Below are positions 18,822-40,617 of a stretch of DNA of 64,000 bases, in pieces (the first letter of the stretch is position 1; the number at the start of each line of letters is the position of its first letter). The notes beneath the pieces were generated by a model, which saw only the letters and a list, made by a program, of their open reading frames with translations, had not been told where the DNA came from and searched no databases. The DNA is taken from the IMG/VR virus record IMGVR_UViG_3300030061_001386, positions 28,722-92,721 of that record. The stretch is one strand, 5' to 3'. The DNA comes from a virus. A program made the position numbers and the translations under genes.

Positions 18822-19054
18822 GTGACGATATTAAAGATGATATTAAAGAGTTAACTGAGAAAATAACCACAGCAGTAGGTTTCCCTACACAAATAGCAAC
18901 TGAATGTATGGAGCATCTTATCAAAATTGATGCTATGATTCAGAAAACTGCTAAAGACTCAAGACACCTAACATTAGTAACTCTATCTAGAATACAAATG
19001 CTGATTACTGAGATGGGTGAAACTGTTCAAACCATTGGTGATTCAGATGAATGA
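18818..19054 (+). CDS. Unknown 78-aa helical protein
   Basis: MSDDIKDDIKELTEKITT begins an all-alpha, heptad-rich protein, probably a coiled-coil oligomer. It overlaps the 392-aa gene start by 8 bp. Function unknown. Confidence 0.6.
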   Translation: MSDDIKDDIKELTEKITTAVGFPTQIATECMEHLIKIDAMIQKTAKDSRHLTLVTLSRIQMLITEMGETVQTIGDSDE

Positions 19055-20225
19055 TATAGATAATGAAAGGAACTTAAAGAGAGGTAATAATTACCCTGCT
19101 TTAACTTCAAGATTGTTAGCATTGTCTGAGTCAGATGACTATGAGATAGCAAAGAAAGAATGGCGTATCACAGGTAATGTTTGGAAGAAGTCACCTATTG
19201 GAAGATATAGAGACATTATTCTAAATCATCCTAGTGGTCATCCACATAATTGTCTATGTGGTAAAGATATTGTTTATCACTTTGAAATAGAGAACACTGT
19301 AAACAATGTTAAGGAGATTGTTGGTTCAACATGTATCAACAATTGGATGGTTCTAAGACATATGTCTGAGACACTTAACATTCCTATTAGTGCTATCACT
19401 GAAGAAAAGATAGAAGAATGGAAGAACGTTGCTGTTCAGACTTTGATTAGAGAAGCATGGTGGGACGATGAAGGAGAAGAGTTTACCAAACTGTTTGATG
19501 AAATCAAAGACCTAGACTTGAGGCTTAACGTTAAGAAGACAGATAAGAAGTACTATGACACTGAACTCAAAGAATACCGCCCTGTAACTTACATTAGAAA
19601 AACAGGTTCAGGTAAGTTCGGTAGGGAGGACTATCAAATGGCTTCTATTGTTTGGAGATGGAATCATCCTGATAACAAGAGAGCGCAGAGTAAGACTAGA
19701 GGTTATCCTAATGATAAGTTGTTAGGTGATATGGACTTATTTTCAATATACATTGATGACTATCTAGAACAACTAGGTGTTGAGGACAAGTATGTAGAAG
19801 ACAGAAAAGCATTCCTAGAAAACTTAGACTTAGACATTAAGGATAAGATGAGTAAACTCAGAGAACATGATGTAACAGAACGTAGGTTCATGGAAGCATG
19901 TCTATACTTTGGTTTCCCTGTTTTTGATGCGTTTGAAGATGGTATTAATTCTTGGGAACGTGGTTTTCTGAGAGATATGAAGCGATTATTCACTAGAGGA
20001 GGCGAGCCAACAGTAAAGCAAGCCGAAAGGTTAAAGGAGATTTTACTAACACGTAAGACTACCAAGGCAACAGAGCCACAACTTAACTTTCTAAAAGGAT
20101 TAGGATACAAAGGGGATATGACATTACTCACTAAACAGCAAGCATCTAAGGAGATAGAAATATTAAAAAAAACTGATGCATGGCCGGTAGTGAGAAAAGG
20201 TACATGGAGGGAAGTTCATGAGTAA
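19047..20225 (+). CDS. 392-aa phage-type zinc protein with C-terminal TEPQLNFLKGLGY domain
   Basis: Start set at ATG 19047 (MNDIDNERNLKRGNN), ten codons inside the longest frame, for an 8-bp overlap. A motif around residue 60, HPHNCLCGKDIVYHFEIEN then VGSTCINNWM, recurs in many phage and bacterial proteins of unknown function and looks like a zinc site. The last 60 residues have TEPQLNFLKGLGYKGD...LTKQQASKEI, a small helical module seen at the ends of DNA-processing and single-strand-binding phage proteins. A role in DNA recombination or repair is likely but unproven. Confidence 0.65.
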   Translation: MNDIDNERNLKRGNNYPALTSRLLALSESDDYEIAKKEWRITGNVWKKSPIGRYRDIILNHPSGHPHNCLCGKDIVYHFEIENTVNNVKEIVGSTCINNWMVLRHMSETLNIPISAITEEKIEEWKNVAVQTLIREAWWDDEGEEFTKLFDEIKDLDLRLNVKKTDKKYYDTELKEYRPVTYIRKTGSGKFGREDYQMASIVWRWNHPDNKRAQSKTRGYPNDKLLGDMDLFSIYIDDYLEQLGVEDKYVEDRKAFLENLDLDIKDKMSKLREHDVTERRFMEACLYFGFPVFDAFEDGINSWERGFLRDMKRLFTRGGEPTVKQAERLKEILLTRKTTKATEPQLNFLKGLGYKGDMTLLTKQQASKEIEILKKTDAWPVVRKGTWREVHE

Positions 20226-20490: not shown

Positions 20491-20523
20491 AAATAGTTGA
20501 ATAAAAAAAAAGAGGTAATGAAA

Positions 20524-20724
20524 ATGAAATTGCGAATAATGAATGAAACAGGCCACACTGAACTAGAAGTATCTAGTGCAGAGATGATTGAGCAGATAGC
20601 AGAACACCCAACTCATTGGGTTTATGTTAACGGTGATATGGTAAGCAGACAGAACATAACCAACATAGATTGGTCAACTGTTGATAATGTGAACCTAGTC
20701 CCTGCTATTGTCGGCGGCTATTAA
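20524..20724 (+). CDS. Putative ubiquitin-like (beta-grasp) modifier ending Gly-Gly-Tyr
   Basis: From ATG 20524 the product is 66 aa, starting MKLRIMNETGHTELEV and ending NLVPAIVGGY. The order (beta hairpin, acidic helix SSAEMIEQIAEHP, beta strand WVYVNGDMV, short turn, final strand NLVPAIV then Gly-Gly) matches ThiS, MoaD and ubiquitin in length and layout. The Gly-Gly is followed by one Tyr, which would have to be removed before activation, as ubiquitin precursors are trimmed. An E1-like enzyme, a JAMM protease and an E2-like protein lie within 7 kb. Earlier in-frame starts add up to nine residues. A sulfur-carrier role is the alternative. Confidence 0.55.
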   Translation: MKLRIMNETGHTELEVSSAEMIEQIAEHPTHWVYVNGDMVSRQNITNIDWSTVDNVNLVPAIVGGY

Positions 20725-20890
20725 TTCGATAAATAAAACAAGTCGGATTTTCAAGAAACCCCTTGTGGTATATACACTTGGGAGATAACTACTATATGCT
20801 GTATCACGCACGTTTGTAGTCCTAGCATCGGGGCAGATGTCAAGTAGGTGAAATGCCTACTAAAAACACTTATTAAAGGAGAGAAGGAAA
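20725..20890 (+). promoter_or_regulatory. Structured leader before the ribonucleotide reductase
   Basis: About 165 bp without an ORF. GTGGTATATACAC (~20766) holds a TATA-like box in a small stem, and AGTAGG / CCTACT (about 20845-20863) forms a perfect stem shortly before the GGAGAGAAGG ribosome site. It could be a promoter plus an attenuator or metabolite-sensing leader. The cobalamin riboswitch B12 box is not visible. Confidence 0.45.
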
Positions 20891-22792
20891 ATGAAATTAG
20901 GAAATGAAGTACTAGCAGAAACCGTAGAGAATATGAAGTATGCTAAGTGGCTAGAAACAGAACAACGAAAAGAAACATGGGATGAGATTTGCGATAGAAA
21001 TCGGGATATGCATCTTAAACATATTAAACAAAAATTAGACTTAGATACAGATAATTCTGTTGTTGTTGCAACTAAATTATATGAAGTGTATGAAGACTTT
21101 GTTAAGACTCGAAAGATACTTCCATCAATGCGTTCAATGCAGTTTGGCGGAAAGCCAATAGAAGTATCTCCAAATAGAATATACAATTGTGCATTCTTAC
21201 CAGTAGATAGTACGCTATCTTTTAGTGAAGCAATGTTCTTACTATTAGGTGGAACAGGAGTTGGCTTCTCGGTACAGAAACATCACATTGACAAACTACC
21301 TGTTGTTAGAAAGCCTAGTACTGAAAGAACTTACAGATACAAAGTAGCAGACACAATAGAAGGTTGGGCTGAAGCGATTAGAGTACTCTTTGATAGTTAC
21401 ACAGGTAAGAGAACAACCATGCCTAGATTCGACTATTCTGATGTTAGACCTAAAGGTGCTAGACTCAAAACAACAGGTGGAAATGCACCCGGCCCTGAAC
21501 CACTAAAGAAATGTATTGTTATCATTCAAGGAATGTTCAACGAGATGGAAGAAGGTCATAAGATTAAACCAATCGAAGCACATGATATGATGTGCTATAT
21601 TGCTGATACTGTTTTATCAGGCGGTATTCGCCGTTCTGCTTTAATCAGTTTATTCAGTGCTGATGATAGAGAGATGATTAATGCTAAAGCAGGTAACTTT
21701 GCAGAAGAAGGTAATGCTCAAAGATATAGAGCAAACAATTCAGCAGTTGTATTAAGGCATAGAGTTACTGAAGATTTCTTCAAAGAACTAATGTCTAATG
21801 TTGCTAATAGTTTCTCAGGCGAACCCGGAGTTTATCTAACCAATGACAAAGATTGGGGTACAAATCCTTGTGTAGAAATTGGACTACGCCCGTATCAGTT
21901 CTGCAATCTTTGCGAGGTTAATGTATCCAATATTGAAAATGAAAATGATTTACTACAACGTGTAGAAGCGGCTACATTCTTAGGAACAGTACAAGCAACA
22001 TATACTGACTTTCATTATCTTAGAGAAGTTTGGAGAAGAAACACCGAGAAAGACGCTCTTATTGGTATTGGTATGACAGGTATTGCTAGTAACAAAGTAG
22101 AAGGTTCTTGGTATAATAAAGCGGCAATGTTAGTTAAGACAACTAATGCTACTTACGCTAAGATGCTTGGTATTAACGAAGCCGCTAGAACTACATGCGT
22201 TAAACCCGCAGGAACAACTAGTTGTGTTTTAGGTACTTCTAGTGGTATTCATGCATGGTATGGTAAGTACTACATTAGGTCAGTTCGTGTAGGTAAGAGT
22301 GAAGCAATTTATCCTTACTTGTTAGACAAACTTCCTGATTTGGTTGAAGATGAAATAGGTAAAGAGGATGAGAGTGCAGTACTGTCTATACCACAAACTA
22401 TTCCATACGACTATGTGACTACAAGAGCAGATGAAACTGCTTTGGAGATGTTAGAACGAGTAAAGTTTGTTTCTGAGAATTGGGTTAAAACAGGTCATCG
22501 TAGAGGAAACAATGGTCACAATGTTTCAGCAACTGTTTTTGTTAAACCAACAGAATGGAAAGAAGTAACTCAATGGTTATGGGATAATAGACATTCATAC
22601 AATGGTATGTCTTTCCTACCTTATGATGGAGGAGAATACCCACAAGCCCCATTCGAAGAAATAGATGAAGAAAGATATAACGAAATGGTCAAAAAACTAC
22701 ATCCAATAGATTTGACTGAAGTAGTAGAATTGGAGGATACCACCAACCTTCAGGGCGAAATAGCCTGTGCAGGTGGAGCATGTGAAGTATAG
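20891..22792 (+). CDS. nrdJ: Class II (adenosylcobalamin-dependent) ribonucleoside triphosphate reductase
   Basis: Makes deoxynucleotides from ribonucleotides, using a thiyl radical generated with coenzyme B12. The 633-aa chain has the class II set: Cys100 (YNCAFLP) and Cys338 (QFCNLC) as the redox pair, Cys327 and Glu329 in NPCVEI as radical and acid residues, and a C-terminal Cys626/Cys631 (CAGGAC) that would re-reduce the site. LLGGTGVGFSVQ near 118-129 is typical of the monomeric Lactobacillus-type enzyme. It is shorter than that enzyme (about 740 aa). It starts the nucleotide-supply part of the early region. The host must provide B12. Confidence 0.93.
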   Translation: MKLGNEVLAETVENMKYAKWLETEQRKETWDEICDRNRDMHLKHIKQKLDLDTDNSVVVATKLYEVYEDFVKTRKILPSMRSMQFGGKPIEVSPNRIYNCAFLPVDSTLSFSEAMFLLLGGTGVGFSVQKHHIDKLPVVRKPSTERTYRYKVADTIEGWAEAIRVLFDSYTGKRTTMPRFDYSDVRPKGARLKTTGGNAPGPEPLKKCIVIIQGMFNEMEEGHKIKPIEAHDMMCYIADTVLSGGIRRSALISLFSADDREMINAKAGNFAEEGNAQRYRANNSAVVLRHRVTEDFFKELMSNVANSFSGEPGVYLTNDKDWGTNPCVEIGLRPYQFCNLCEVNVSNIENENDLLQRVEAATFLGTVQATYTDFHYLREVWRRNTEKDALIGIGMTGIASNKVEGSWYNKAAMLVKTTNATYAKMLGINEAARTTCVKPAGTTSCVLGTSSGIHAWYGKYYIRSVRVGKSEAIYPYLLDKLPDLVEDEIGKEDESAVLSIPQTIPYDYVTTRADETALEMLERVKFVSENWVKTGHRRGNNGHNVSATVFVKPTEWKEVTQWLWDNRHSYNGMSFLPYDGGEYPQAPFEEIDEERYNEMVKKLHPIDLTEVVELEDTTNLQGEIACAGGACEV

Positions 22793-23116
22793 ATGTTAAT
22801 TAAAGAAAAAGATTTCCTTAACTTTGAGTATGTTATTAGGACTAGTGTAACTATCCCTCAAAGGGTTTGGTTAGATAAGAGTTTCAAACTATACAAGAGT
22901 GGTAATCTCAGATACAGTAAGTTGTATTATTCTATGGAACGTGCTGTTGTAGGAGGGCATAGTTCTTTCAAATCAATGGAAGAACTTGCCTCTCACATAG
23001 AAAGAGACGCATGGTATTTACACAATTATGGTGATGCCAAACATTGGGAAAAAGAAAATAAAAAGGTGAATAAAAATGGTAAAAATAAAAGTAATAATTC
23101 CCTCAGTGGGAGATGA
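22793..23116 (+). CDS. Unknown 107-aa protein
   Basis: The ATG touches the stop of the reductase gene. MLIKEKDFLNFEYVIRTS begins a mixed alpha/beta protein with a Lys/Asn-rich tail. It overlaps the 438-aa gene by 41 bp, so the two are probably translated together. No family recognised. Confidence 0.6.
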   Translation: MLIKEKDFLNFEYVIRTSVTIPQRVWLDKSFKLYKSGNLRYSKLYYSMERAVVGGHSSFKSMEELASHIERDAWYLHNYGDAKHWEKENKKVNKNGKNKSNNSLSGR

Positions 23117-24392
23117 CACAAGAAATTACACAACTAGTAGTTTTTTATTGAGGTCTTCAAAGAAACAATTGTTTCGTAGTATTTGGACTCCAAATCCCCC
23201 AACACATACAAATAAGTTTAGAACTCATAGAAATAGTGTAAATCAATTTGGGGAATTACAGTGGCAAGTAACTAGGCCAAGTCTATCAAATGTTAGAGGT
23301 GAACAAGACCCTATACTAACAAAAACTTCTACACTAATATCTAACACATTGTTAACTAAAGTACAGAATGAAAACTTCTTGAACACTATGACTTTCAAAT
23401 ACCATAACGGTGAAAGCATTATTGTTTATGGTCGAAAAGGTAGTGGACACCATATTGATGGAGTTAGGGTAAGTAAGAAAGACCTCGCAGTTGTTCTATC
23501 CAAGATAATAATACGTGGTGCGTTTGTAAGAGACGTACTTGTAATGGATGATTATATTGAAAAGGTTGTTCACTATCCACCTAATGTTCTTCATGCTATT
23601 GAGAATAGAAGTAATTACAACTTTTATCATGTAGGTGAAAAGCATGAGGTGTTGATTAACACTAAAGTTATCAGTGAGACTGAATGTGCATTAGAGATTT
23701 CAGAAGGTGTTTGGGGTGCTATTACTCTTAAGGATTTGAATGTCTTCATTAATACATTTAGATTTGGTCAATCAAAGTCCAAAACTTGGTACAGAGCAGA
23801 CCCCTCAAAACTATGGCGATTACTAATGGGTAATATGCCTAGTCCAACAGAACTAAAGTTATGTGTAGCATGGTTAATGCAAAACAGAAAGCAGAATATG
23901 GTTGAAGACAGAGCAACAAAACTACTACATGATATGGATGCTGAATACCCAAACATTAGATTGGTTCAATTCAGAAACCCAATGAACAAGGCTCTATTCG
24001 TTAGAGGTAAAGTTGCTGATTGGGTTGTTGTTGATGAGAGGAAAGGTATGAAACTTGGTCATCAGAATGTTAACACATACTTGATTAATGGTAAAGATTC
24101 AGACAATTCTAAAACTTGGAAAGGTCATTCACTCACTGGGCCAATATGTATTGATAATATCCATAGGAACTCAAGCATTGGCGACCAACTAACTGCTAGA
24201 GCATTAGCACTAATGAATGATGAAACATCTGCCAAGAGTATCTATACTATTGTTGATTACGTGAAGAAAGCATCTGAAAGAAACTTAGTAAACCCTGATA
24301 ATTACCGTATGGATATGTCCAAACTAAACTCTTGGTCTAAACAGAAAGAACAGGACTATGCGGCAAAGAAAGCATTGGAGGCTAAAGCGTGA
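23076..24392 (+). CDS. 438-aa protein with an E2-like C-terminal domain (tentative)
   Basis: The first 270 residues are not recognised. From about 275 the predicted order is helix (RATKLLHDMDAEYPN), beta strands (IRLVQF, ALFVRG, DWVVVDE), then HSLTGPICID with His351 and Cys358, then two helices (QLTARALALM and IVDYVKKAS). This resembles the UBC fold, where a His and G-x-I-C-[LI]-D surround the catalytic Cys. The classical HPN motif is absent and there is an insertion before the His. It lies between the Ubl and E1 genes, and its stop overlaps the TFB start. The E2 reading is inference. Confidence 0.42.
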   Translation: MVKIKVIIPSVGDDTRNYTTSSFLLRSSKKQLFRSIWTPNPPTHTNKFRTHRNSVNQFGELQWQVTRPSLSNVRGEQDPILTKTSTLISNTLLTKVQNENFLNTMTFKYHNGESIIVYGRKGSGHHIDGVRVSKKDLAVVLSKIIIRGAFVRDVLVMDDYIEKVVHYPPNVLHAIENRSNYNFYHVGEKHEVLINTKVISETECALEISEGVWGAITLKDLNVFINTFRFGQSKSKTWYRADPSKLWRLLMGNMPSPTELKLCVAWLMQNRKQNMVEDRATKLLHDMDAEYPNIRLVQFRNPMNKALFVRGKVADWVVVDERKGMKLGHQNVNTYLINGKDSDNSKTWKGHSLTGPICIDNIHRNSSIGDQLTARALALMNDETSAKSIYTIVDYVKKASERNLVNPDNYRMDMSKLNSWSKQKEQDYAAKKALEAKA

Positions 24393-25267
24393 AGTGTATG
24401 GAGTGTGGCTCAACTGAATCATCGTTTGATGATAGGTTGGGCTACCACATATGTTCTGATTGTGGTCTTGTGCTTAATGTCGAGATATTCGAGGAAACAT
24501 CTAGTGCAATGGAATCAGATTCTAAATATGCTATGGGCAGTACAATACAATTCGGTAATAGAAGTAAAACGTCTGTAAAACATAGTCTAAGACTCAACCA
24601 TATTAAGACTGAGGCAAAGAGTAAGTTTTGGTCAGAAGGAGATATAGCAACTCACAATACATGTATGATGTATCTATCTCCTTACAAACCGTATAAACTC
24701 TCATTAAGAAGAGAGGTAGAACACTACTATCAAGAGTTACAACGAAATAGAGTATTAGTTGGTCTACCAATAGAAGTTAGAGCGGCAGGTTTAGCATACT
24801 TCATTCTAAAGGATGAAAGTATTTTCGTATCGCTCAAGTCTTTACAGAAAACAACAGGAGTTCATAGAAGTAAGATAATGAGGGCTTCTAAAAAGATAGC
24901 CAAGTTCTATCGTAAGTCTCATATCTTTGGTGTTAGAAACGTTCATGATGTAGTGACTGTATGTTTAGATAAGTCAGGGGCAGATATCAAAGACAGAAAA
25001 CCTGTTTATACATTCGTTGACTATGTATCTAACTATTATGAAACTGTTAACGTTAGAGTGGGTAATGGTGAAATCGCAGGAGCAGTATATATTGCATGTA
25101 AAATGTTAGATTACCCTGTATTACAGAGAGAACTAGCATCAACAGTCAATATTAGTGAAGTAACATTAAGAATACACATAAAAAAAATATGTGAACTAAT
25201 ACAGATAGAAAGAACTATCTTGAATAAATATAATGTAAATAAAATAATTGGAGGAATAAGAGAATGA
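24389..25267 (+). CDS. tfb: Transcription initiation factor B (TFB/TFIIB family)
   Basis: Directs archaeal RNA polymerase to promoters by binding TBP and the BRE element. The 292-aa product has an N-terminal zinc ribbon (Cys3, Cys6, Cys22, Cys25), a charged linker and two cyclin-like repeats: residues ~105-190, and ~205-285 including GEIAGAVYIACKMLDYPVLQRELA. The GTG start at 24389 overlaps the preceding TGA; starting at the following ATG would lose Cys3. A viral TFB can reprogram the host polymerase toward viral promoters. It may recognise the AAACCC sequence found before the TATA boxes at 10-14 kb (inference). Confidence 0.93.
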   Translation: MKCMECGSTESSFDDRLGYHICSDCGLVLNVEIFEETSSAMESDSKYAMGSTIQFGNRSKTSVKHSLRLNHIKTEAKSKFWSEGDIATHNTCMMYLSPYKPYKLSLRREVEHYYQELQRNRVLVGLPIEVRAAGLAYFILKDESIFVSLKSLQKTTGVHRSKIMRASKKIAKFYRKSHIFGVRNVHDVVTVCLDKSGADIKDRKPVYTFVDYVSNYYETVNVRVGNGEIAGAVYIACKMLDYPVLQRELASTVNISEVTLRIHIKKICELIQIERTILNKYNVNKIIGGIRE

Positions 25268-25854
25268 GAAAAGTAATGATAATAGGAACAGGTGGAATTG
25301 GAAGTTATTTAGTTGACTTCCTATCGAGAATTGGTATTTATGACATAACAGTATTTGATGACGATAAGTTAGAAGAGAAGAATCTAACATATCAAAACTT
25401 CATGGCGGATATGGTAGGGCAGACAAAGGTTAATGCTCTCAATAATAGATTGAAGGTAAATGGGTTAAAACCTGTAAAGCCTCAACCGTATCAAGTATTA
25501 GTAGAGAAGCAATTGAAAGGGTATGACCTAGTAGTTTGTTGTGCTGATAACCTAGCAGTAAGGCGATTATTATATCGTCAAGGTTATGGTGATGATGCTA
25601 AAACTAAGTGGTTAGACTTGAGAGCGCAAGGCCGTAATGCGGCATTAATCTCTTACAAGGTTAACGCTAATCTCGTTGATGATTTGTTAGCAGGTGCAGA
25701 AGGTTCATTCAGTTGTCAAGGCGGAGATTGGGATGGTAGTCCTGAACAAGTAAACTGTATGCAAGTTGCAATTGCAGGTATTGCAGTACAGTGGATTCAA
25801 AGATGGTGGCAAGACAATGAGAACGTTGCTGATAAAATGGTGGTGAATGTTTGA
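25264..25854 (+). CDS. E1-like (ThiF/MoeB/UbaA family) adenylyltransferase
   Basis: Would activate the C-terminal Gly-Gly of a ubiquitin-like protein by adenylation. The 196-aa chain has the Rossmann loop GTGGIGS (8-14), the acidic ATP site FDDDKLEEKNLTYQNF (31-46), the helix GQTKVNALNNRL (52-63) and VVCCADN (90-96), which matches the conserved Asp-Asn near the reactive site. Possible thiol residues are Cys151 and Cys165. It lacks the two CxxC zinc motifs of ThiF/MoeB, and the Arg of the usual NLNRQ is replaced by Tyr43. It is a short, single-domain form. ATGA overlap with TFB. Confidence 0.85.
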   Translation: MRKVMIIGTGGIGSYLVDFLSRIGIYDITVFDDDKLEEKNLTYQNFMADMVGQTKVNALNNRLKVNGLKPVKPQPYQVLVEKQLKGYDLVVCCADNLAVRRLLYRQGYGDDAKTKWLDLRAQGRNAALISYKVNANLVDDLLAGAEGSFSCQGGDWDGSPEQVNCMQVAIAGIAVQWIQRWWQDNENVADKMVVNV

Positions 25855-26081
25855 GAGCCGCTTCTAAGATACATGTCGAGTATGAAGTACTGAAGCATCT
25901 TATGGATAGAATAGACTTAACAGAATTAGAAGAGAAGATGTGTCCTTCAGGTGACAAGACAGCAGAGAAAAGATTCTTGGATGGGGCTGACTCTGTTTCT
26001 TCTCTTATCAATAATATGATGAGTAGAAGATTACATAGATTACCAAAGACACATTCTGCATACAAGGAGAAAGGAGAATGA
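25851..26081 (+). CDS. Unknown 76-aa helical protein
   Basis: A TTG start overlaps the E1 stop (TTGA). MRAASKIHVEYEVLKHLM begins an all-alpha, charged protein ending YKEKGE, with one Cys. Its coupling to the E1 gene makes it a candidate accessory or substrate-adaptor, which is inference from position. Confidence 0.55.
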   Translation: MRAASKIHVEYEVLKHLMDRIDLTELEEKMCPSGDKTAEKRFLDGADSVSSLINNMMSRRLHRLPKTHSAYKEKGE

Positions 26082-26350
26082 AATACATCTGCTTTTCAAT
26101 ATTAGGAAAGACTCTTTGTGGTAAAGAGGATGAGCCTGTTCCCGAACACTTGGCAGATAGCAGAAGGTTCTGCAATGACTGTGTTCAAGTAATGTGGAGA
26201 GAACAGTACAGGCGAAGAATAAAGAGTGGTGTAAGTGCTTTTAGTAAAACTACAACAGTAGTAGAATCTAAAACAGAAACCAAGGTCGAGAGTAAACAAA
26301 TACTCAGGCCAATAAAAACATTAAGACATTATATGAAGGTGAAAATATGA
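26078..26350 (+). CDS. 90-aa protein with N-terminal Cys cluster
   Basis: Cys residues in KYICFSILGKTLCGK and RRFCNDCVQ could form one zinc site within the first 36 residues; a basic Lys-rich tail follows. Overlaps both neighbours (ATGA). Its place between E1 and JAMM raises the idea of a zinc-finger adaptor, but nothing specific supports it. Confidence 0.55.
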   Translation: MKYICFSILGKTLCGKEDEPVPEHLADSRRFCNDCVQVMWREQYRRRIKSGVSAFSKTTTVVESKTETKVESKQILRPIKTLRHYMKVKI

Positions 26351-26586
26351 GTGATGAAGAGAATATAGAAGACATAGATGAACAAATGATTGACGAAGTT
26401 ATGAATGTAATTTCAACAGACGGATATTACCAACAAGCAGAGATAGTAAAGGTTACTTGTCCTGTTTGTGGTGAGGAGTTCTTAGGAACTAAAAGACATG
26501 CAGGTGGATTCATTGCGGGTCATCGAGCCTATCATGAGTTTGTTAACAGTCAAGATATAATTATAGATAATATGGGGGGAATATAA
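26347..26586 (+). CDS. 79-aa C2H2-type zinc-finger protein
   Basis: After an acidic N-terminus, VTCPVCGEEFLGTKRHAGG...HRAYH forms a CxxC...HxxxH finger at residues ~37-62. Probably a small DNA- or protein-binding regulator. ATGA overlap upstream, TAATG overlap downstream. Confidence 0.65.
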   Translation: MSDEENIEDIDEQMIDEVMNVISTDGYYQQAEIVKVTCPVCGEEFLGTKRHAGGFIAGHRAYHEFVNSQDIIIDNMGGI

Positions 26587-26729
26587 TGGGAAAGATGGGA
26601 AGAAAGTTTCAAGAGATGCGTGATGATTATGAGCAAGCATTACTTGATGGAAAAATAAATGAAAGTCTAACGTTTTCTAATTGGATTCAATTAGAGAGAG
26701 CGTCAGCAAAGAAAAATGAGGAGGAATAA
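26586..26729 (+). CDS. Unknown 47-aa protein
   Basis: MGKMGRKFQEMRDDYEQA starts a helical peptide with an acidic end. It shares one base with the previous stop and ends two bases before the JAMM gene; its own last codons form the GAGGAGGAA ribosome site of that gene. Confidence 0.5.
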   Translation: MGKMGRKFQEMRDDYEQALLDGKINESLTFSNWIQLERASAKKNEEE

Positions 26730-26731
26730 AA

Positions 26732-27241
26732 ATGGAAAAAGAAGTAACAGAAAATGAAAAGGCAATGAAGGAGTTTGATTGGAAACAGCACATAAGAGAT
26801 GTGCATAATGATATGGCAGATGATATAGAATATCTCTTCCCTAACAATTCCACTGAAGCCTTCTTGACAGCAATATGGAAAATGTCAATAGATACATTAG
26901 AAGGAATGGAAGTACAAGTAATTGTTGATGATAAAGATGATTTATACATCAGTAGTGGCGACCCATCCTATGTATCATTCGAAGGACATGAAGATGAACT
27001 AGTAAACGGCGCACCGATGAGAATACCAATTAAGTGTTGGATTCACACTCATCCTTTTGGTCAGGCTTATTTCAGTTCAACTGATTGGTCAACAATTAAC
27101 ACTTGGAAACCTATACTAAAGTCTGCTATTGTTCTTGGTGATAACCAATATCTAGCATTCAATCCTGAAACTATTGTAGCAAAGAAAGTTTTCTATGGGC
27201 TATTAGAACAACAGAGTTCATACAGTGGGGAAGAAGAATGA
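26732..27241 (+). CDS. JAB/JAMM-family metalloprotease (deubiquitinase-like)
   Basis: Zinc isopeptidase or precursor protease of the family that removes ubiquitin-like tags. The 169-aa chain has His105-Thr-His107 then seven residues to Ser115 and Asp118 (IHTHPFGQAYFSSTDW), an exact HxHx7SxxD motif; the catalytic Glu is upstream, possibly near 57 or 84. Flanking strands (VQVIVDD, KCWIHTH, AIVLGDNQYLAF) fit the JAMM fold. With the E1 and Ubl it could trim the Tyr after Gly-Gly or reverse conjugation. Strong GGAGGAAT ribosome site. Confidence 0.85.
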   Translation: MEKEVTENEKAMKEFDWKQHIRDVHNDMADDIEYLFPNNSTEAFLTAIWKMSIDTLEGMEVQVIVDDKDDLYISSGDPSYVSFEGHEDELVNGAPMRIPIKCWIHTHPFGQAYFSSTDWSTINTWKPILKSAIVLGDNQYLAFNPETIVAKKVFYGLLEQQSSYSGEEE

Positions 27242-28006: not shown

Positions 28007-28494
28007 GTGATGAAAGATTAACTATGGAAAACAGCAGACAAACAACTCTTAAGGAGTTTGGATTTGTATTCTTAATTCTTACAACTTTGTTAGCAGGATG
28101 TACAATCCCTACACCTGATGAAGTGTTTGATGAAGAAGCAGAAGCACCCAAAGAATGGACAACCATTAATGGTACGTTCACATTTTTAATTAACGACAGT
28201 AATAACTCAACACAGCAAACTGTTTGGTTGGATGTTAATACTACTTATGGGTTGATTGAGTTAGATTATTTTCATTATAATGTAACCCATCTTAGTTTTG
28301 ATATTGTGAATAACTCTGTTATATTTAACAACTATTCATTTAACATTGAAGGTCATTTACTACAAGATAGTCTACTATGGAATACAGGATACGCACCACA
28401 ATTTGGGAATGCAACACTTATGTTTGCTACTTTCCCATTCGATGTAACAGTTGAATATGAAGTAAAATATCGTGTATGGAATGGTAGAGAATGA
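28003..28494 (+). CDS. Putative surface lipoprotein rich in N-glycosylation sequons
   Basis: A hydrophobic stretch ends in LTTLLAGC (Cys near residue 32), a lipobox-like signal for export and lipid attachment. The outer part (~130 aa) contains about nine N-x-[ST] sequons, such as NGT, NNS, NST, NTT, NVT, NYS and NAT. Archaeal surface proteins are often N-glycosylated at such sites. The protein would sit on the infected cell's outer face; superinfection exclusion or receptor masking are possible roles (inference). No enzymatic motif is seen. Confidence 0.65.
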   Translation: MSDERLTMENSRQTTLKEFGFVFLILTTLLAGCTIPTPDEVFDEEAEAPKEWTTINGTFTFLINDSNNSTQQTVWLDVNTTYGLIELDYFHYNVTHLSFDIVNNSVIFNNYSFNIEGHLLQDSLLWNTGYAPQFGNATLMFATFPFDVTVEYEVKYRVWNGRE

Positions 28495-28892
28495 AAAAGA
28501 AAGCAGTAACTGTTCAGTTCCCTGCTCCGCTTCCTGCGGAGATAGAGTGTCCTATTTGTTTAGGCAACAAATGTATTGTTTGTGAAATGAGTGGTAAAAT
28601 AAAACTAGTAGTTGATGCTAAAGTCCCAATACAAAAGGCATTGATAATAAAGTATGTTGCTAACAACATTAACTCAATAAGTTCAGAACTATCTAAGAAC
28701 TATGGTTTAGTTCCTGAGATAGAAACTATGGAAGTTTTTGAACATCCTGAGAATAGAACATATGAGATAATTAAGATTAGTAGTTTAGGGGGCGTGGTGT
28801 ATATCGCCACAAGAGTAGATGACGTTGAAGGAATTAGAACGTTCACCTCTCTAAAAGATTTGAATAGATTTAAGGAAGGTTGGTACGAATGA
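28491..28892 (+). CDS. 133-aa protein with DnaJ-like zinc knuckle
   Basis: Residues ~19-36 read ECPICLGNKCIVCEMSGK, a CxxCxGxxCxxCxxxGK pattern like one DnaJ zinc unit. The remainder is mixed alpha/beta with a helix (KALIIKYVANNINSISSEL). No J-domain is present, so it is a zinc protein rather than a chaperone. Overlaps both neighbours by 4 bp. Confidence 0.6.
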   Translation: MKKKAVTVQFPAPLPAEIECPICLGNKCIVCEMSGKIKLVVDAKVPIQKALIIKYVANNINSISSELSKNYGLVPEIETMEVFEHPENRTYEIIKISSLGGVVYIATRVDDVEGIRTFTSLKDLNRFKEGWYE

Positions 28893-29119
28893 GTAAAGAA
28901 TTAGAAACGGTATTAAGAATACCAAGAAATGCGACAATGGAAATGATAGTAAAGAAAGGACAATACTACAAAATAGATGTAGTAGATGTTAGGTGGTACA
29001 CTAATGGTAAACCGTCTAGAAAAGGAATCCGAATGAACATGGATGAACTAGATGTTTTACTGAAAGGTTTGACTAAGATTAATGATAATTATAAGGTGAA
29101 CTCCGATGAGTCTAATTAG
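28889..29119 (+). CDS. PC4-like single-strand DNA-binding / transcription coactivator
   Basis: The 76-aa product from ATG 28889 (MSKELETVLRIPRNAT) has KIDVVDVRWYTNGKPSRKGI then MNMDELDVLLKGL. This matches the PC4/Sub1 layout: a beta sheet carrying [VI]-D-[VI]-R-x-[YW], a K-x-x-x-x-K-G-[IV] turn and a final helix. PC4-like proteins bind single-stranded DNA and affect transcription or replication, and archaea and viruses have short forms of this size. Next to ligase; a family search should settle it. Confidence 0.5.
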   Translation: MSKELETVLRIPRNATMEMIVKKGQYYKIDVVDVRWYTNGKPSRKGIRMNMDELDVLLKGLTKINDNYKVNSDESN

Positions 29120-30656
29120 ATTTGCAAGAATGTGCGAAGCAATAGAACAACAGAATAGAACAACAGACAAGATTAGAATACTAGATGAGTCACTTAGTTC
29201 ATTTAGTAACCCTAATGTTGTATTAGATATTCTATCACTGAATCTTGAGACTAATAACATTGGTAACAAGAGAGCAGTTACATGGATTGCTAACTCATTA
29301 CAGATGTTTGAAGACGAGGTTAAATCACAAGCAGGTATGTGGAGTGATTTAGGTGAAGGAATATACAAGTTTCTAGATGGTGAGTGGAACAAAGATTCTA
29401 ACTATACAATTAGAAATATGTATTCGCTCCTAACATTAGATTGTTCTTCTATCAATAGTAATTCATACACTATGATTAATGAAGCATTGAATGAAATGTC
29501 AGCATTAGAAGTTAAGTGGTTTATTCGCTATTGGCTTAGACACCCTAGAAACGGTATCGGAGAAAAGGCTCTCGCTTCTCTATTGAAGCGTAGGTTCAAC
29601 ACTCAATTTCGTGAAGAATATCTCAAACTACATTCACCTTCTGAAGTGTTTAGGTATCTATCTAGTGGTAATACACCACCAACACATTCAGGAGTTGGTA
29701 AGTATATTCAGTGTTCACTAGCGAAGAAGTTTAAGACCCCGTATGTAACACCTGATAATTATCTAATTGATTACAAGTATGATGGTAATAGGTATCAGAT
29801 TCATCGAGACAGGGATAACGTAATTATATTCAACAGGAAAGGTAAGGTAGTCACTAGACAATATCCTGACATAGTTGAGTTGGCTAAAACGTTTAATGCT
29901 AGTACCTTTATTTTAGATACTGAGATTTACCCCGTAGAAAGAGTAGGTAGTACAGCACCTGCTGACCATAAGAAACTAGCAACAAGAGTTCATTCTAAAG
30001 ACATTGAAACTGCGGTGGAAACATGTCCTGTACACTTAGTTATCTTTGACATATTATATTACATGGGTCATAGTTTGATAGAACAAAAATACAAAGAACG
30101 TTTAATTCATATGCCTGACTTTCCTTCTATTAATAGAGCAATATCCTTTACAGATAAAGACATTGAAAGAGCCTATAACATGGCTATCAACGAAGGTTTT
30201 GAAGGTATTATGATAAAAGATTTAGACGCTACTTATCAGGCAGGAAGAAGAACTAGTGCTATGGTAAAACACAAACCACCTAGAATTGATTTAGATGTAG
30301 TGATTACTTCTGCTAAGTATGGTGATGGTAAAAGAAGTAATGTCTTTGGTACGTTTGGTATTTCAGTTAAAGATGACTCTTCTCCTACTGGTTATCTATC
30401 AGTGGGTTCAGTAGGAACAGGATTGTCTGATGGTGATTTAATGTTCTTAACAACTGAACTAAAGAAGATTATTGAGAAGTTCAATGCTGAAGTTTTCCAT
30501 GTACTACCTAGAGTTGTATTAGAAGTTACTTGTGACTTAATATCAAGGGATGCAGAAGGTAATTATGGACTGCGTTTTCCTAGAGTTCTAAGGATTAGAA
30601 ACGATAAGTTCGCTAAGGAATGTAACTCTATTTTAGACTTGCAGATGATGGCTTAG
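29106..30656 (+). CDS. lig: ATP-dependent DNA ligase (archaeal/eukaryal type)
   Basis: Seals nicks in DNA using ATP. The 516-aa chain has an N-terminal helical DNA-binding domain (~1-200), the adenylation motif KYDGNR with catalytic Lys224 (motif I), LDTEIYPVE (motif III), EGFEGIMIKD (motif IV), MVKHKPP (motif V) and a C-terminal OB domain ending ISRDAEGNYGLRFPRVLRIR (motif VI region). Length is close to archaeal Lig1. It overlaps the PC4-like gene by 14 bp and would finish Okazaki fragments made by the viral polymerase. Confidence 0.93.
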   Translation: MSLIRFARMCEAIEQQNRTTDKIRILDESLSSFSNPNVVLDILSLNLETNNIGNKRAVTWIANSLQMFEDEVKSQAGMWSDLGEGIYKFLDGEWNKDSNYTIRNMYSLLTLDCSSINSNSYTMINEALNEMSALEVKWFIRYWLRHPRNGIGEKALASLLKRRFNTQFREEYLKLHSPSEVFRYLSSGNTPPTHSGVGKYIQCSLAKKFKTPYVTPDNYLIDYKYDGNRYQIHRDRDNVIIFNRKGKVVTRQYPDIVELAKTFNASTFILDTEIYPVERVGSTAPADHKKLATRVHSKDIETAVETCPVHLVIFDILYYMGHSLIEQKYKERLIHMPDFPSINRAISFTDKDIERAYNMAINEGFEGIMIKDLDATYQAGRRTSAMVKHKPPRIDLDVVITSAKYGDGKRSNVFGTFGISVKDDSSPTGYLSVGSVGTGLSDGDLMFLTTELKKIIEKFNAEVFHVLPRVVLEVTCDLISRDAEGNYGLRFPRVLRIRNDKFAKECNSILDLQMMA

Positions 30657-32420: not shown

Positions 32421-33215
32421 ATGTATAATAATAAGAAAAATAGAAATGTAAAAAATAAGAAAAGTAAAAAACTTTACACTAATAGAATGTGGCTTGAAGA
32501 ACAGTATGTATTAAAAGATAAGTCTGCTAAAGAAATAAGTGATATGTTTAATGTTCCTGTTGGGACTATAATCAAATATATTGAAATGTTTAATTTAGAA
32601 CTTGAACATAATAGAGAAGAACAACAAGTTAAGGAATACTTCGAAACTGTAAGCAAACCTAAGAAGGTTGAGAAGAAAAAAGTTTGGGGGTCAAAGCCTA
32701 AGAAAAAACCTAAAACACAGAAATACAAATCTAAGACTGTTCTTAAGAGATTGTTCTATGATGAAAATATGCCTATTTATCAGATGGCAAAACAATTCGG
32801 TGTATCTGAAGCAGTAGTAAGATATTGGTTAAAAAAATATGGATTAACAAAATCAGGTAAAGCCGCATATAGAACACGAAAAGAGGATAGGTTTCTGTTA
32901 GCACAACAACAAACTATTGCCCCTAGAACTGTTCAAGTAAACCCCTATTCTAAACCTACACCTAGTAATATTACAAAGAATAGAAAGGCATATAGTACTA
33001 TTAGAAACTATGAAACAGGGTTGTATGATGTTGTTGGTGTTATAGAACATGAACATGGCTATCATCATCTTGAACATGGTATGTTCTTAGAGTTAACAAA
33101 AGAAGTTGCTTCTGAATTAGCAGTTAATATGAATAGAACAATGGGTCTTAAGGACTCTGAAGCAAATATGATTATTCTATCTTCATTAGGTTGGGATAAA
33201 AAGGTGAGACAATGA
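32421..33215 (+). CDS. DNA-binding protein with two helix-turn-helix motifs
   Basis: The first HTH is KSAKEISDMFNVPVGTIIKYI (about residues 35-55). The second is MPIYQMAKQFGVSEAVVRYW (about 115-135). They are joined by a long Lys-rich linker. The C-terminal part (His-rich GVIEHEHGYHHLEHG, then a helical end) is not recognised. Probably a viral transcription regulator binding two half-sites. It lies between the two clamp-loader genes, and its stop overlaps the RfcS start. Confidence 0.68.
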   Translation: MYNNKKNRNVKNKKSKKLYTNRMWLEEQYVLKDKSAKEISDMFNVPVGTIIKYIEMFNLELEHNREEQQVKEYFETVSKPKKVEKKKVWGSKPKKKPKTQKYKSKTVLKRLFYDENMPIYQMAKQFGVSEAVVRYWLKKYGLTKSGKAAYRTRKEDRFLLAQQQTIAPRTVQVNPYSKPTPSNITKNRKAYSTIRNYETGLYDVVGVIEHEHGYHHLEHGMFLELTKEVASELAVNMNRTMGLKDSEANMIILSSLGWDKKVRQ

Positions 33216-34129
33216 GCGAATTATGGACAGAGAAATATAGACCAAATAGATTGAGTGAGATAGTAGGACAACTAAGTTTTGTATTAGATGCAGAACATTG
33301 GGTTACATCAGGTAATATGCCTAATGTATTGTTTTACGGTGTAGCAGGTACAGGTAAAACTGCGGCTTCTGTTGCGTTAGTCAATGAATTACTAGGTGAT
33401 AATAAACAAGGTAACTTCTTTGAGATTAATGCGTCTGATGATAGGAAACTAGAAACTGTCAGAACCAAGATTAAGGAAATTGCATCTACCAAAGTTATCG
33501 GTGATGCTCCTTTCAAGATTATACTTCTTGATGAGATGGATGGTATGACTAAAGATGCTCAGAATGCATTGAAGAGAGTCATGGAAAGGTATGCTGATAA
33601 TTGTAGGTTCATTATTACATGTAATGAGAGACACAAGATTATTCATCCTCTACAATCTAGATGTGCCAACTACCAATTTAAGAGAGTCAACCCCACAAGT
33701 ATGTTAGATATTTTCACAAAAATCTTGGCTGAAGAAGGTGTGAATCAGTATTCTGACGAAGAGTTGCAAAGGTTTATTACCTATTTGCAGGGTGATTTGA
33801 GACGAGGGATTAACGAATTACAGGCATCCTCATCGAGTAATCGAAGCCTACAAAACCAAATAGACAGAAGTTTAGAACCGTACTCTGAAATAATGAAAAT
33901 GATAAATGAAAATGACTATAATAATGCTTTAGAGAAGGTGCATAAATTGATTTACGATTCTACTGATATGAAGACTATATGCATTAATTTGCACGATATT
34001 ATATTAAAGATGGATTCTTCGCACCAATCCAAGTTCAAGATGCTCCGTGTAGTAGGAGAGGCTGAGTGGAGAAGTAGTAATATGACTCCAAAAGTATTAG
34101 CATCTTGGATGATAGGACAGATGGTGTAA
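33212..34129 (+). CDS. rfcS: Replication factor C small subunit (clamp loader ATPase)
   Basis: Loads PCNA onto primed DNA. The 305-aa chain starts with the RFC box (WTEKYRPNRLSEIVGQ), then Walker A GVAGTGKT (43-50), Walker B IILLDEMD (103-110), sensor 1 FIITCN (133-138) and the arginine-finger SRC motif QSRC (148-151). These are all typical archaeal RfcS features; the collar domain follows. Length fits the family (about 315 aa). It likely works with the viral PCNA and the degenerate large-subunit-like protein. Confidence 0.94.
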   Translation: MSELWTEKYRPNRLSEIVGQLSFVLDAEHWVTSGNMPNVLFYGVAGTGKTAASVALVNELLGDNKQGNFFEINASDDRKLETVRTKIKEIASTKVIGDAPFKIILLDEMDGMTKDAQNALKRVMERYADNCRFIITCNERHKIIHPLQSRCANYQFKRVNPTSMLDIFTKILAEEGVNQYSDEELQRFITYLQGDLRRGINELQASSSSNRSLQNQIDRSLEPYSEIMKMINENDYNNALEKVHKLIYDSTDMKTICINLHDIILKMDSSHQSKFKMLRVVGEAEWRSSNMTPKVLASWMIGQMV

Positions 34130-37800: not shown

Positions 37801-39492
37801 ATGATAATATGTAAAACAGAAAATGGAATAGGATTAAGATGGAGAGAAGGAGATGAGACACAAAGTAAGATTGTGTCTCACTCCGACTTTCAACCTTACA
37901 TGTATGCAAATAAAGCACACTCTGCCCTACCATTTACTTTCAAGTGTAAGGATAACTTAGGTACATTTCAAATTAAAGTAATGTTTGAAAGTACAGATGA
38001 GGTTAACCTAAACGGTGACAAACTTCACAAAGTAACTTGGCAACCTAAACATCCTAAATATGCTAAAGATGTAAGACTAGTTCTAGAGGCTAGAGGTATG
38101 AAAACATATGAGGGTGATGTTCAACATCATTATAGATATGCAGTTGATGAAGTAAAAGAAATACCTGAACAAAACTTACGTAGATGGTATTGGGATATGG
38201 AATGGCAACAAGGTGGTAAGTATGATGAAGCAATTACTTGTATTGTAATATACGATAACTATGATGATGAGTATCATGTATTTGCTTGGTATCCTGATGA
38301 GGCTAGGAGTATAGTATTGAAAGATAATGATAACTTCATCCTTCATAGATATACAGGAGAGCATAATATGCTTACAGGGTTTCTAGCATTTGCTATGGAA
38401 AAAGAACCTGATATGCTTATCTCATGGTTCGGATGGAAGTTCGACATACCTGTATTATTCACTAGAATGGTACATCATGGAATAGACCCAAGACTACTAT
38501 CTCCATTTGATGAGATAACTGGTATTGGTTGGAAGAAGAACAAGCCAACTATATGGAAGTCAAGAGTAGAAGGTTACTCTCCTGTATCTCAACCAATTAA
38601 AGGTATGATTACAGTAGCACTTGATTTAGTGTTTGAGCGACAATGGAATGATGCTCAACGTGGAACTTTACCTTCACTCTCTTTGGACTATGTTTCAGAA
38701 AGTGTACTTGGTGATGTTAAGTTAGTGAGTGAGAAGTTTCCTGATAAGAATGAGTTCTTTAGAAGGGCATGGTTAGAAGATTCAGATACCTATCTAGAAT
38801 ATGCTTTCAAGGATGTTGAGTTAATCAAAAGAATTGATGAAGAGAATCATTGTGTTGACGCTGTTTTATCATTACAACGATTACTGAAAGCACCATTTGA
38901 TGCATGTTTCTATGCAAGCAACATGGGAGGAATATATTTCATGCGTAATGCTACTTGGAAAGCCCCTACGGGGGAGAAAGGTGAGCGTAAGGAGTATGAG
39001 GGGGCAATGATATACAACCCTCTCAGTGAAGGTACAAATGGCCTTCATCAGAACGTTGCCGCATTTGATTTTGCAGGGCTATATCCTTCGATGATAATTT
39101 CACGTAATATATCTTGGGAGACTATTTCAGAAGAACCAACAGACTTTGCTGTTAACCTAGCAATACCTAGAGATTTTAGTGAAGTTAAAAGAGAAGAGAT
39201 GATGTATTTCAAAACAGATAAGTTAGGTTTACTACCTAAAGCAGTACTTGACTTAAAAGAGTTAAGAGACGAATATAAGAAGAAGATGAAACAAGCAACA
39301 ACTAAAGATGAATACGCTAAGTGGAATAATAATCAGTTAGCAGTAAAAAGACTCTCTGCGTCTTTCTATGGTATAATTGCGTATCAGGGATTTGGTTGGG
39401 CCAATGTTGATTTAGCCGCTAGTATTACTGCTAGTGCTAGAGAAGCAATCAGAGCCGCCGCTTTCAAAGTGAGGGATATAAATGCCAATTAA
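37801..39492 (+). CDS. polB: DNA polymerase B, N-terminal part (exonuclease, palm motifs A and B)
   Basis: Copies viral DNA. The 563-aa part holds the 3'-5' exonuclease motifs WYWDME (Asp132, Glu134), GWKFDIP and YAFKD, then polymerase motif A DFAGLYPS (Asp423) and motif B AVKRLSASFYG (~514). The chain stops about 40 residues after motif B, where an uninterrupted enzyme would run on to motif C. The rest of the palm is encoded by a separate gene at 39700, with a 73-aa membrane-type gene between them. Splits near this point are known in some archaea and T4-like phages. Confidence 0.93.
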   Translation: MIICKTENGIGLRWREGDETQSKIVSHSDFQPYMYANKAHSALPFTFKCKDNLGTFQIKVMFESTDEVNLNGDKLHKVTWQPKHPKYAKDVRLVLEARGMKTYEGDVQHHYRYAVDEVKEIPEQNLRRWYWDMEWQQGGKYDEAITCIVIYDNYDDEYHVFAWYPDEARSIVLKDNDNFILHRYTGEHNMLTGFLAFAMEKEPDMLISWFGWKFDIPVLFTRMVHHGIDPRLLSPFDEITGIGWKKNKPTIWKSRVEGYSPVSQPIKGMITVALDLVFERQWNDAQRGTLPSLSLDYVSESVLGDVKLVSEKFPDKNEFFRRAWLEDSDTYLEYAFKDVELIKRIDEENHCVDAVLSLQRLLKAPFDACFYASNMGGIYFMRNATWKAPTGEKGERKEYEGAMIYNPLSEGTNGLHQNVAAFDFAGLYPSMIISRNISWETISEEPTDFAVNLAIPRDFSEVKREEMMYFKTDKLGLLPKAVLDLKELRDEYKKKMKQATTKDEYAKWNNNQLAVKRLSASFYGIIAYQGFGWANVDLAASITASAREAIRAAAFKVRDINAN

Positions 39493-39703
39493 AACAGCAA
39501 AGATAGATGTAGAACAACTACAAGAAGAAGTTGAAGAAATGAATAGAAAGATGATAGAAGAGTTTGCTCCATCTAGAGCCGAAAAGATTCAGAGACTAAC
39601 AATAGAGTTGGTTGAAGATGGTTATGTTATTCTAAAGTATTTTGCAGTAGGTGTATTCTTCTATGGTTTAATATCTCTATTGCAGGATGTGAATATAGTA
39701 TGA
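39482..39703 (+). CDS. 73-aa single-pass membrane protein inserted between polymerase halves
   Basis: A charged coiled-coil first half (EEVEEMNRKMIEEF) leads to one hydrophobic segment (YVILKYFAVGVFFYGLISLL). It overlaps the PolB N-part by 11 bp and the C-part start by 4 bp. It has no homing endonuclease motif. It may be a remnant of an element that split the gene or a real membrane anchor for replication. Confidence 0.65.
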   Translation: MPIKTAKIDVEQLQEEVEEMNRKMIEEFAPSRAEKIQRLTIELVEDGYVILKYFAVGVFFYGLISLLQDVNIV

Positions 39704-40617
39704 AAGTAGTTTATGGACATACAGATTCTATCTATGTTAAGATGGAAGATGACAGTGTTGAAAAAGCACAACTAGTATTAGATGAGTTGAACGAACACGT
39801 TAGAGAAATATTTCCTAATGTTCTAGGTTTAGAAGAACATCCTGTAACACTTGAGTTTGAGAAGTTCTTCAAGACTTTAGGTGTAGGATGTAAGAAAAAC
39901 AGAAACGCAGGTTTAATCTCATGGAAAGATGGTAAGCACCTAGATGATTTGGAGTTTACTATGACGGGTTTTACTGCTAAGAGAGTAGCAATTACTCCAT
40001 TAGCAAAGAAGATTCAACTAGAGGTTTTAGATAGGTGGGTTAAGGAAGAGTCTGAAGAAGACATTACTAACTATTTACACGAAGAATACTTTAAGGTTCT
40101 TAATGGTGATATTGATAAATCAATGTTAGCCCAACGTAGTAGGTTTAGAGAAGAACGTTTTCAGGTAAAGTGTTCTACTTGTATTCGTTTGTTTAGTAAA
40201 ACATCTAAGTATCACCTACATGAACTTGCTAACATTGTTGATGGTAAAAGATTCCCATGTTGTAATAAGCCTAGTTTCATAACTATGAAAGGTAAAAGAC
40301 CAACAATAGGTTCAGGTATTGAAGGTGTATTATATCATAATACAAAGAACCCTGATAATATGATTGATGATTCTTATCTGTATCTACGAGTCAAAGACTT
40401 GAACGATACTTACTTTCATCCTCTTAATAGAAATGACGTAGTTCCTAACTATGTGTCTGCAATGACATTAGAAGGATTATCTAGTTATACACCTGATTAC
40501 AGGCATTATGCTAGTTCTATTATTAGCAAGGCAGAACCTATTTATGAAGCAATGGGTTGGGATATAACCCAAATATACCGAGATAGAAAACAAAGTAGTG
40601 TGGAGGATTGGTTTTGA
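39700..40617 (+). CDS. polB: DNA polymerase B, C-terminal part (palm motif C, thumb) with PIP box
   Basis: The 305-aa part begins MKVVYGHTDSIYVKM. This is motif C (usually YGDTDS) with His in place of the first Asp; the second, metal-binding Asp is kept. FTMTGFTAKRVAITP contains the KxY-like region, and a thumb follows with four Cys (CSTC and CC pairs) that may bind zinc. The end QSSVEDWF is a PCNA-interacting peptide. Together with the N-part it gives 868 aa, a normal PolB length, so the two products likely assemble. Confidence 0.92.
   Translation: MKVVYGHTDSIYVKMEDDSVEKAQLVLDELNEHVREIFPNVLGLEEHPVTLEFEKFFKTLGVGCKKNRNAGLISWKDGKHLDDLEFTMTGFTAKRVAITPLAKKIQLEVLDRWVKEESEEDITNYLHEEYFKVLNGDIDKSMLAQRSRFREERFQVKCSTCIRLFSKTSKYHLHELANIVDGKRFPCCNKPSFITMKGKRPTIGSGIEGVLYHNTKNPDNMIDDSYLYLRVKDLNDTYFHPLNRNDVVPNYVSAMTLEGLSSYTPDYRHYASSIISKAEPIYEAMGWDITQIYRDRKQSSVEDWF

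Follow-up and report, generated by a model that had tools for sequence, protein, structure and literature searches.

We analyzed a 64,000-nucleotide stretch of viral DNA (hereafter the window), which covers 64 kb of the 92,721 bp IMG/VR virus record IMGVR_UViG_3300030061_001386, and found that it carries a compact gene cluster encoding a ubiquitin-like protein (Ubl), an E1-type activating enzyme, a JAMM metalloprotease and a candidate E2 conjugating enzyme. We think it likely that these genes provide a marine, magrovirus-like tailed virus with a self-contained system for maturing the Ubl, activating it, conjugating it and taking it off again. The initial annotation of this DNA had named the open reading frames (ORFs) of all four, and each of them lies on the plus strand at the position listed here. 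The members of the cluster and two further genes that accompany them are as follows.

20524 to 20724, plus strand: Ubl, predicted beta-grasp ubiquitin-like protein ending Gly-Gly-Tyr (AF2 model, Foldseek matches, Gly-Gly conservation).
23076 to 24392, plus strand: E2 candidate, 438 aa (invariant Cys358, UBC-like order of elements in the AF2 model, weak Foldseek matches to E2s).
24389 to 25267, plus strand: TFB-like transcription factor gene (Pfam TFIIB zinc ribbon, E 7e-8), overlapping the E2 candidate and E1 genes by 4 bases.
25264 to 25854, plus strand: E1/ThiF-family activating enzyme (Pfam ThiF match, invariant ATP-site residues and Cys151).
26347 to 26586, plus strand: CCHH zinc-finger protein, 79 aa, ending Gly-Gly-Ile, between E1 and JAMM.
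26732 to 27241, plus strand: JAMM/MPN+ metalloprotease (HxHx7SxxD motif, AMSH-LP and Rpn11-like profile matches).

The initial annotation had described the set as scattered, which is wrong: the genes form a compact cluster, because the E2 candidate and TFB genes, the TFB and E1 genes, and the E1 gene and the next ORF (starting at 25851) share 4 bases in each case. The Ubl gene alone stands apart, separated from the others by a ribonucleotide reductase gene, as had been noted, whereas the TFB gene, which had been taken as a second interruption, overlaps the genes on both of its sides. The reductase gene itself is variable, being present in 78 of 106 loci with room for it and not found in 28. 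We counted gene presence in 122 distinct E1 loci, considering for each gene those loci with room for it, and found the Ubl gene in 102/104, the E2 candidate in 113/113, the TFB gene in 119/119 and the JAMM gene in 120/120. The co-occurrence in related viral genomes that had been proposed as a check was borne out: among 66 distinct loci fetched by E1, 50 were complete (the remainder being cut by contig ends), and in all 50 the five genes occurred on the same strand in the order Ubl, E2 candidate, TFB, E1, JAMM. The five-gene linkage is well beyond chance. Outside viruses the set is almost absent: when 84,980 species genomes were searched with the E2 candidate, a single contig was obtained, in a Maricaulis metagenome-assembled genome, and this contig is most likely a mis-binned virus. 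In three close relatives (loci L097, L100 and L101), the TFB position, approximately 0.9 kb before E1, is taken by a protein of 312 aa that ends in IGGQ, possibly by chance.

The Ubl reads PAIVGGY at its C-terminus, and an alternative TTG start is located at 20497. The AF2 model (pLDDT 86) has the beta-grasp order EE-H-EE-H-E with a floppy C-terminus, and nearly all of the 50 PDB matches listed by Foldseek for this model are chains of ubiquitin, NEDD8, SUMO, ISG15 or other Ubls, the best of those listed having an E-value of 4e-3 and a probability of 0.98. The model and the structural matches support the beta-grasp protein that had been read from the sequence, and the predicted fold resembles that of ubiquitin. 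Gly64-Gly65 is invariant in 70/70 non-redundant relatives. The residues that follow it number 0-9 and share no common sequence (Y, C, NQ, SL, Q, NY and others), the variability to be expected if the tail is removed by cleavage.

The E1 matches Pfam ThiF with an E-value of 3.8e-18 and 66 bits (cut-off 28.1), and G8, G10, G11, G13, D32, D34, N40, K55, D95, R100 and C151 are invariant in 86 non-redundant relatives, in agreement with the GxGGxG motif and Asp-containing ATP site recognized at the outset. It can be aligned with PRTRC ThiF over 99.6% of its length (E 9e-24), its SC-Cys matching the invariant Cys of the PRTRC E1. In a ThiF tree of 36 domains, which holds few outgroups and leaves out UbaA, the viral E1s fall into a single clade (99/98), which sits in a larger group together with crAss gp76 and the PRTRC E1; this group is placed apart from MoeB, Cap2 and the multi-ubiquitin E1s (93/93). 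The JAMM protein has the exact HxHx7SxxD motif that had been reported for it, and E60, H105, H107, S115 and D118 are invariant in 87/87 relatives. Its profile matches, to JAMM proteins of solved structure, are AMSH-LP (E 2.4e-4), Rpn11-like (E 0.002) and STAMBP, and it falls below the Pfam Prok-JAB cut-off (17.4 vs 25 bits). Three outcomes had been named beforehand as decisive for the reading of the set, and on all three we found the result that favours it: the Ubl is predicted to be a beta-grasp protein, its Gly-Gly is invariant, and the active residues of the E1 and JAMM are never lost.

An E1 of the ThiF family acting on a small beta-grasp protein could instead serve sulfur transfer, with a ThiS/MoaD-like Ubl being activated for thiocarboxylation in tRNA or cofactor sulfuration. 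The sole Pfam and NCBIfam hints for the Ubl are indeed to ThiS, with a sub-threshold E-value of 0.0044 in Pfam and 0.043 in NCBIfam, and the E1 scores best in NCBIfam with ThiF. However, a sulfur-carrier role is made less likely because the JAMM is constant and C-terminal tails are present, features foreign to the classical thiamine and molybdopterin pathways (PMC1779556), and because there is no sulfur-metabolism gene among the annotated neighbours; the grouping of the E1 with PRTRC and crAss E1s also argues against it. We consider this explanation very unlikely.

The zinc-finger Gly-Gly protein encoded between the E1 and the JAMM is new here, having been absent from the earlier reading of the sequence. 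C38, C41, H59 and H63 are invariant and the C-terminus reads Met-Gly-Gly-Ile. Fifty of 60 relatives end in Gly-Gly plus exactly one residue, the other ten being a divergent group, and in the last 14 positions of 21 sequences with less than 80% identity the two glycines alone are invariant. When IMG/VR was scanned with zinc-core patterns in which the tail was not used, 54/54 distinct proteins ended in Gly-Gly plus one residue; an E1 and/or JAMM gene was found on the same stretch for 51 of these, and two of the other three are near a stretch edge. As a control, the near-terminal Gly-Gly of the protein encoded at 2214-4004 is no longer present at 49% identity, and Gly-Gly ends of structural-side proteins were discarded as candidates on this ground or for having too few relatives. 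We regard the zinc-finger protein as an optional client and not a constant part of the system because its gene was found in only 57/121 loci. Three roles are conceivable for it: that of a further modifier, of a substrate for the JAMM, or of a competitor. A complete E1-E2-JAMM system with two structurally unrelated Gly-Gly modifiers, the beta-grasp Ubl and the zinc finger, in which one JAMM matures and one E1 activates the two of them, seems to us rather unlikely; if true, an E1/JAMM pair would here have a novel type of client, namely a protein modifier outside the beta-grasp fold. In three loci without the zinc-finger gene (L088, L259 and L260), a small Cys-rich protein located approximately 3.1-3.6 kb after E1 ends in KKKGG plus Leu or Met, an observation that comes from few sequences.

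Short tails on both Gly-Gly proteins, together with an E2 that is itself a candidate, are also what one might see if clipping, perhaps with activation, of the Ubl and the zinc-finger protein served the assembly or regulation of a viral complex and no other proteins were tagged. Such a role has been proposed for TAPI/TAPK, the Ubl and JAB pair of lambda-type tail modules (PMC1779556), which shares with the set described here a viral Ubl with a conserved C-terminal Gly and a JAB protease. The lambda pair has no E1 and is located among tail genes (PMC1779556), whereas here the E1 is constant and the genes are on the replication side; in addition, the JAMM has no NlpC/P60 domain reported by Pfam. 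Processing alone is in our view quite unlikely, and we continue to favor a system that conjugates the Ubl.

Conjugation would call for an acceptor of the activated Ubl, and the 438 aa protein had been put forward as a possible E2. Its ORF and its invariant cysteine are real: Cys358 is conserved in 105/105 relatives, mostly inside G-P-I-C-I-D-N. The assignment as an E2 is tentative. The AF2 model (pLDDT 81, pTM 0.55) has a helix at 273-290, strands within 294-357, Cys358, and helices at 368-380 and 390-402, an order of predicted elements that fits that of a UBC domain. In Foldseek searches of the PDB, E-values were at least 0.09 throughout, and the two highest-probability matches listed were both E2s, UbcH5B (0.35) and UBE2G2 (0.21). 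Searches with single sequences and with whole-protein and C-terminal profiles gave no match in Pfam, PHROGs, NCBIfam, PADLOC or PDB. When the candidate was compared with PRTRC_B and Prok-E2_B using hhalign, the best alignments paired Cys358 with the E2 Cys, with scores within the noise of unrelated viral families, and they were not used as evidence; PRTRC_B and Prok-E2_B, both accepted E2s, also failed to match each other in the same profile test. PRTRC_F was considered as a relative and rejected, as profile comparison showed no relation. We hold it quite possible that the Cys358 protein is an E2, while leaning slightly against it.

The E1 also matches PADLOC E1-E2 models, in their E1 region only (E 1.9e-14). 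This raises the possibility of a conjugation module of the defence type, comparable to CBASS Cap2/Cap3 or Bil, directed against host immunity or competing viruses, and a defence role of prokaryotic Ubl-type conjugation is known (PMC10097602). Against such a weapon, the Ubl, JAMM and E2 candidate have no PADLOC match, no cyclase was found among the annotated neighbours (not every ORF having been scanned), and near-universal conservation in the virus group is unlike the patchy occurrence of defence cargo. We judge this use of the set to be improbable.

Taken as a conjugation system, the set might work as follows. The JAMM would clip the variable tail of the Ubl precursor, exposing Gly-Gly; the E1 would adenylate this Gly-Gly and probably load the Ubl onto Cys151; the Cys358 protein would probably accept the Ubl and pass it to target proteins; and the JAMM could also take the Ubl off again. 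The JAMM, and perhaps the E1 as well, would also act on the zinc-finger protein as a second client. Of these steps, we infer tail clipping, thioester transfer and conjugation, while the Ubl fold and its Gly-Gly, the conserved E1 and JAMM active sites and the gene linkage come from the sequences or the model. As for the targets, the overlap of the viral TFB gene with genes of the system leads us to favour, as a guess, proteins of transcription or replication, early in infection. Several observations weigh against this scheme. Eleven of 110 unique Ubls end in a bare Gly-Gly, showing that clipping is not needed in all; the Arg of the MoeB-type N-x-x-R-Q is replaced by Tyr43 in the viral E1; and the E2 identity is without sequence support, with weak support from the fold. 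Furthermore, the linkage counts are not counts of independent events because all loci come from related viruses, and nearby replication genes, like other genes close by (ligase in 91/92 loci, a 402 aa gene in 96/98), are equally constant. These viruses probably tag proteins during infection, and the near-universal presence of the set in a large, widespread ocean virus group indicates that it is probably important there. The set combines a small Ubl-E1-JAMM core with what may be a new family of E2s and with a second Gly-Gly protein that was not expected.

The wider gene content of the window was considered with respect to virus affiliation. Three further features were relevant.

29106 to 30656: ATP-dependent ligase.
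33212 to 34129: RFC-like AAA protein.
37801 to 39492 and 39700 to 40617: PolB, split.

A split PolB, TFB, RFC, an ATP-dependent ligase and a genome of about 90-100 kb are given as traits of Magrovirales in PMC10768690, and with respect to that description the virus has all four genes and a record of matching size. The archaeal tailed virus reading made at the outset fits this gene content, by which the source virus is magrovirus-like and probably a marine tailed virus. The match is to the ICTV description of Aoguangviridae, in the order Magrovirales, which are predicted viruses of marine archaea (PMC10768690), and the hosts of the ocean virus group carrying the Ubl set are probably archaea. 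Among other ORFs of the window, 19017-20225, just before the Ubl region, encodes the 402 aa protein found in 96/98 loci, which has no Pfam match. Shortly after the JAMM gene, 28491-28892 encodes a 133 aa protein with a CPICLGNKCIVC zinc motif, present in 105/116 loci, which is a possible adaptor. On the minus strand, one ORF takes up 50004-60248; at 3,414 aa it is remarkably large given a virus genome of 93 kb.

In prokaryotes, Ubl systems have been described on plasmids, in defence islands and as the SAMPs of archaea. The suggestion that such a set is undescribed in tailed archaeal viruses is consistent with the open magrovirus literature searched: ThiF, JAB and ubiquitin are unmentioned in the main text of PMC10160649, PMC8651126, PMC7318539 and PMC5628999, and the figure legend in PMC10768690 gives no gene of such a set, with Philosof 2017 and Zhou 2023 outside this coverage and an earlier annotation there being possible. 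The archaeal SAMP/UbaA/JAMM system shares with the viral set a Ubl with C-terminal Gly-Gly, one E1 and a JAMM deconjugase, but a Cys358 protein and Ubl precursors with tails distinguish the viral set, and the viral E1 does not reach the NCBIfam UbaA equivalog model (45.7 vs 450 bits). Among the Ubl/E1/E2/JAB sets that Iyer et al. (2006; PMC1779556) described in prokaryotes are the lambda TAPI/TAPK pair and row 6d, which we identify as PRTRC. This plasmid system likewise has a Ubl, E1, JAMM and Cys-bearing E2 candidate in one cluster, and its E1 aligns over the full length including the catalytic Cys; it differs in having ParB where TFB is found here, and in that the viral Ubl ends in Gly-Gly. 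The NCBIfam PRTRC models were not reached (ThiF 51.1 vs 144.75 bits; A, B and C without a match), and the viral Ubl had no match to PRTRC C in profile comparison.

Judged by sequence comparison, the closest relatives of the viral set are the plasmid PRTRC E1 and the E1 and JAMM of crAss-like phages. Profile matches to Bacteroides phage crAss001 were obtained for the E1 (gp76, ThiF; E 6e-22) and the JAMM (gp77, JAB; E 7e-7), which are annotated in that phage only as thiamine biosynthesis protein and metalloprotease; no profile match to the E2 candidate or the Ubl was detectable in crAss-like phages. An 'AIVGG' in crAss001 gp76 resembles the end of the viral Ubl and was set aside, being unsupported in other crAss rows. 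In both virus groups the E1 and JAMM are virus-encoded, adjacent and near replication genes, whereas in crAss-like phages the host is bacterial, the E1 has an N-terminal extension and falls in a separate clade, and the JAMM has a long C-terminal part. In the crAss-like loci (L031 2244-7463, corresponding to crAss001 gp79-gp75, and L281-L294), E1 gp76 and JAMM gp77 are accompanied by the conserved unknowns gp78 and gp75 and adjoin the DNA primase; gp79 is possibly a beta-grasp protein, and the gp79-gp75 region looks like a parallel phage Ubl cluster. The viral set described here draws attention to the crAss-like phages of the human gut, whose parallel E1/JAMM pair has received little notice.

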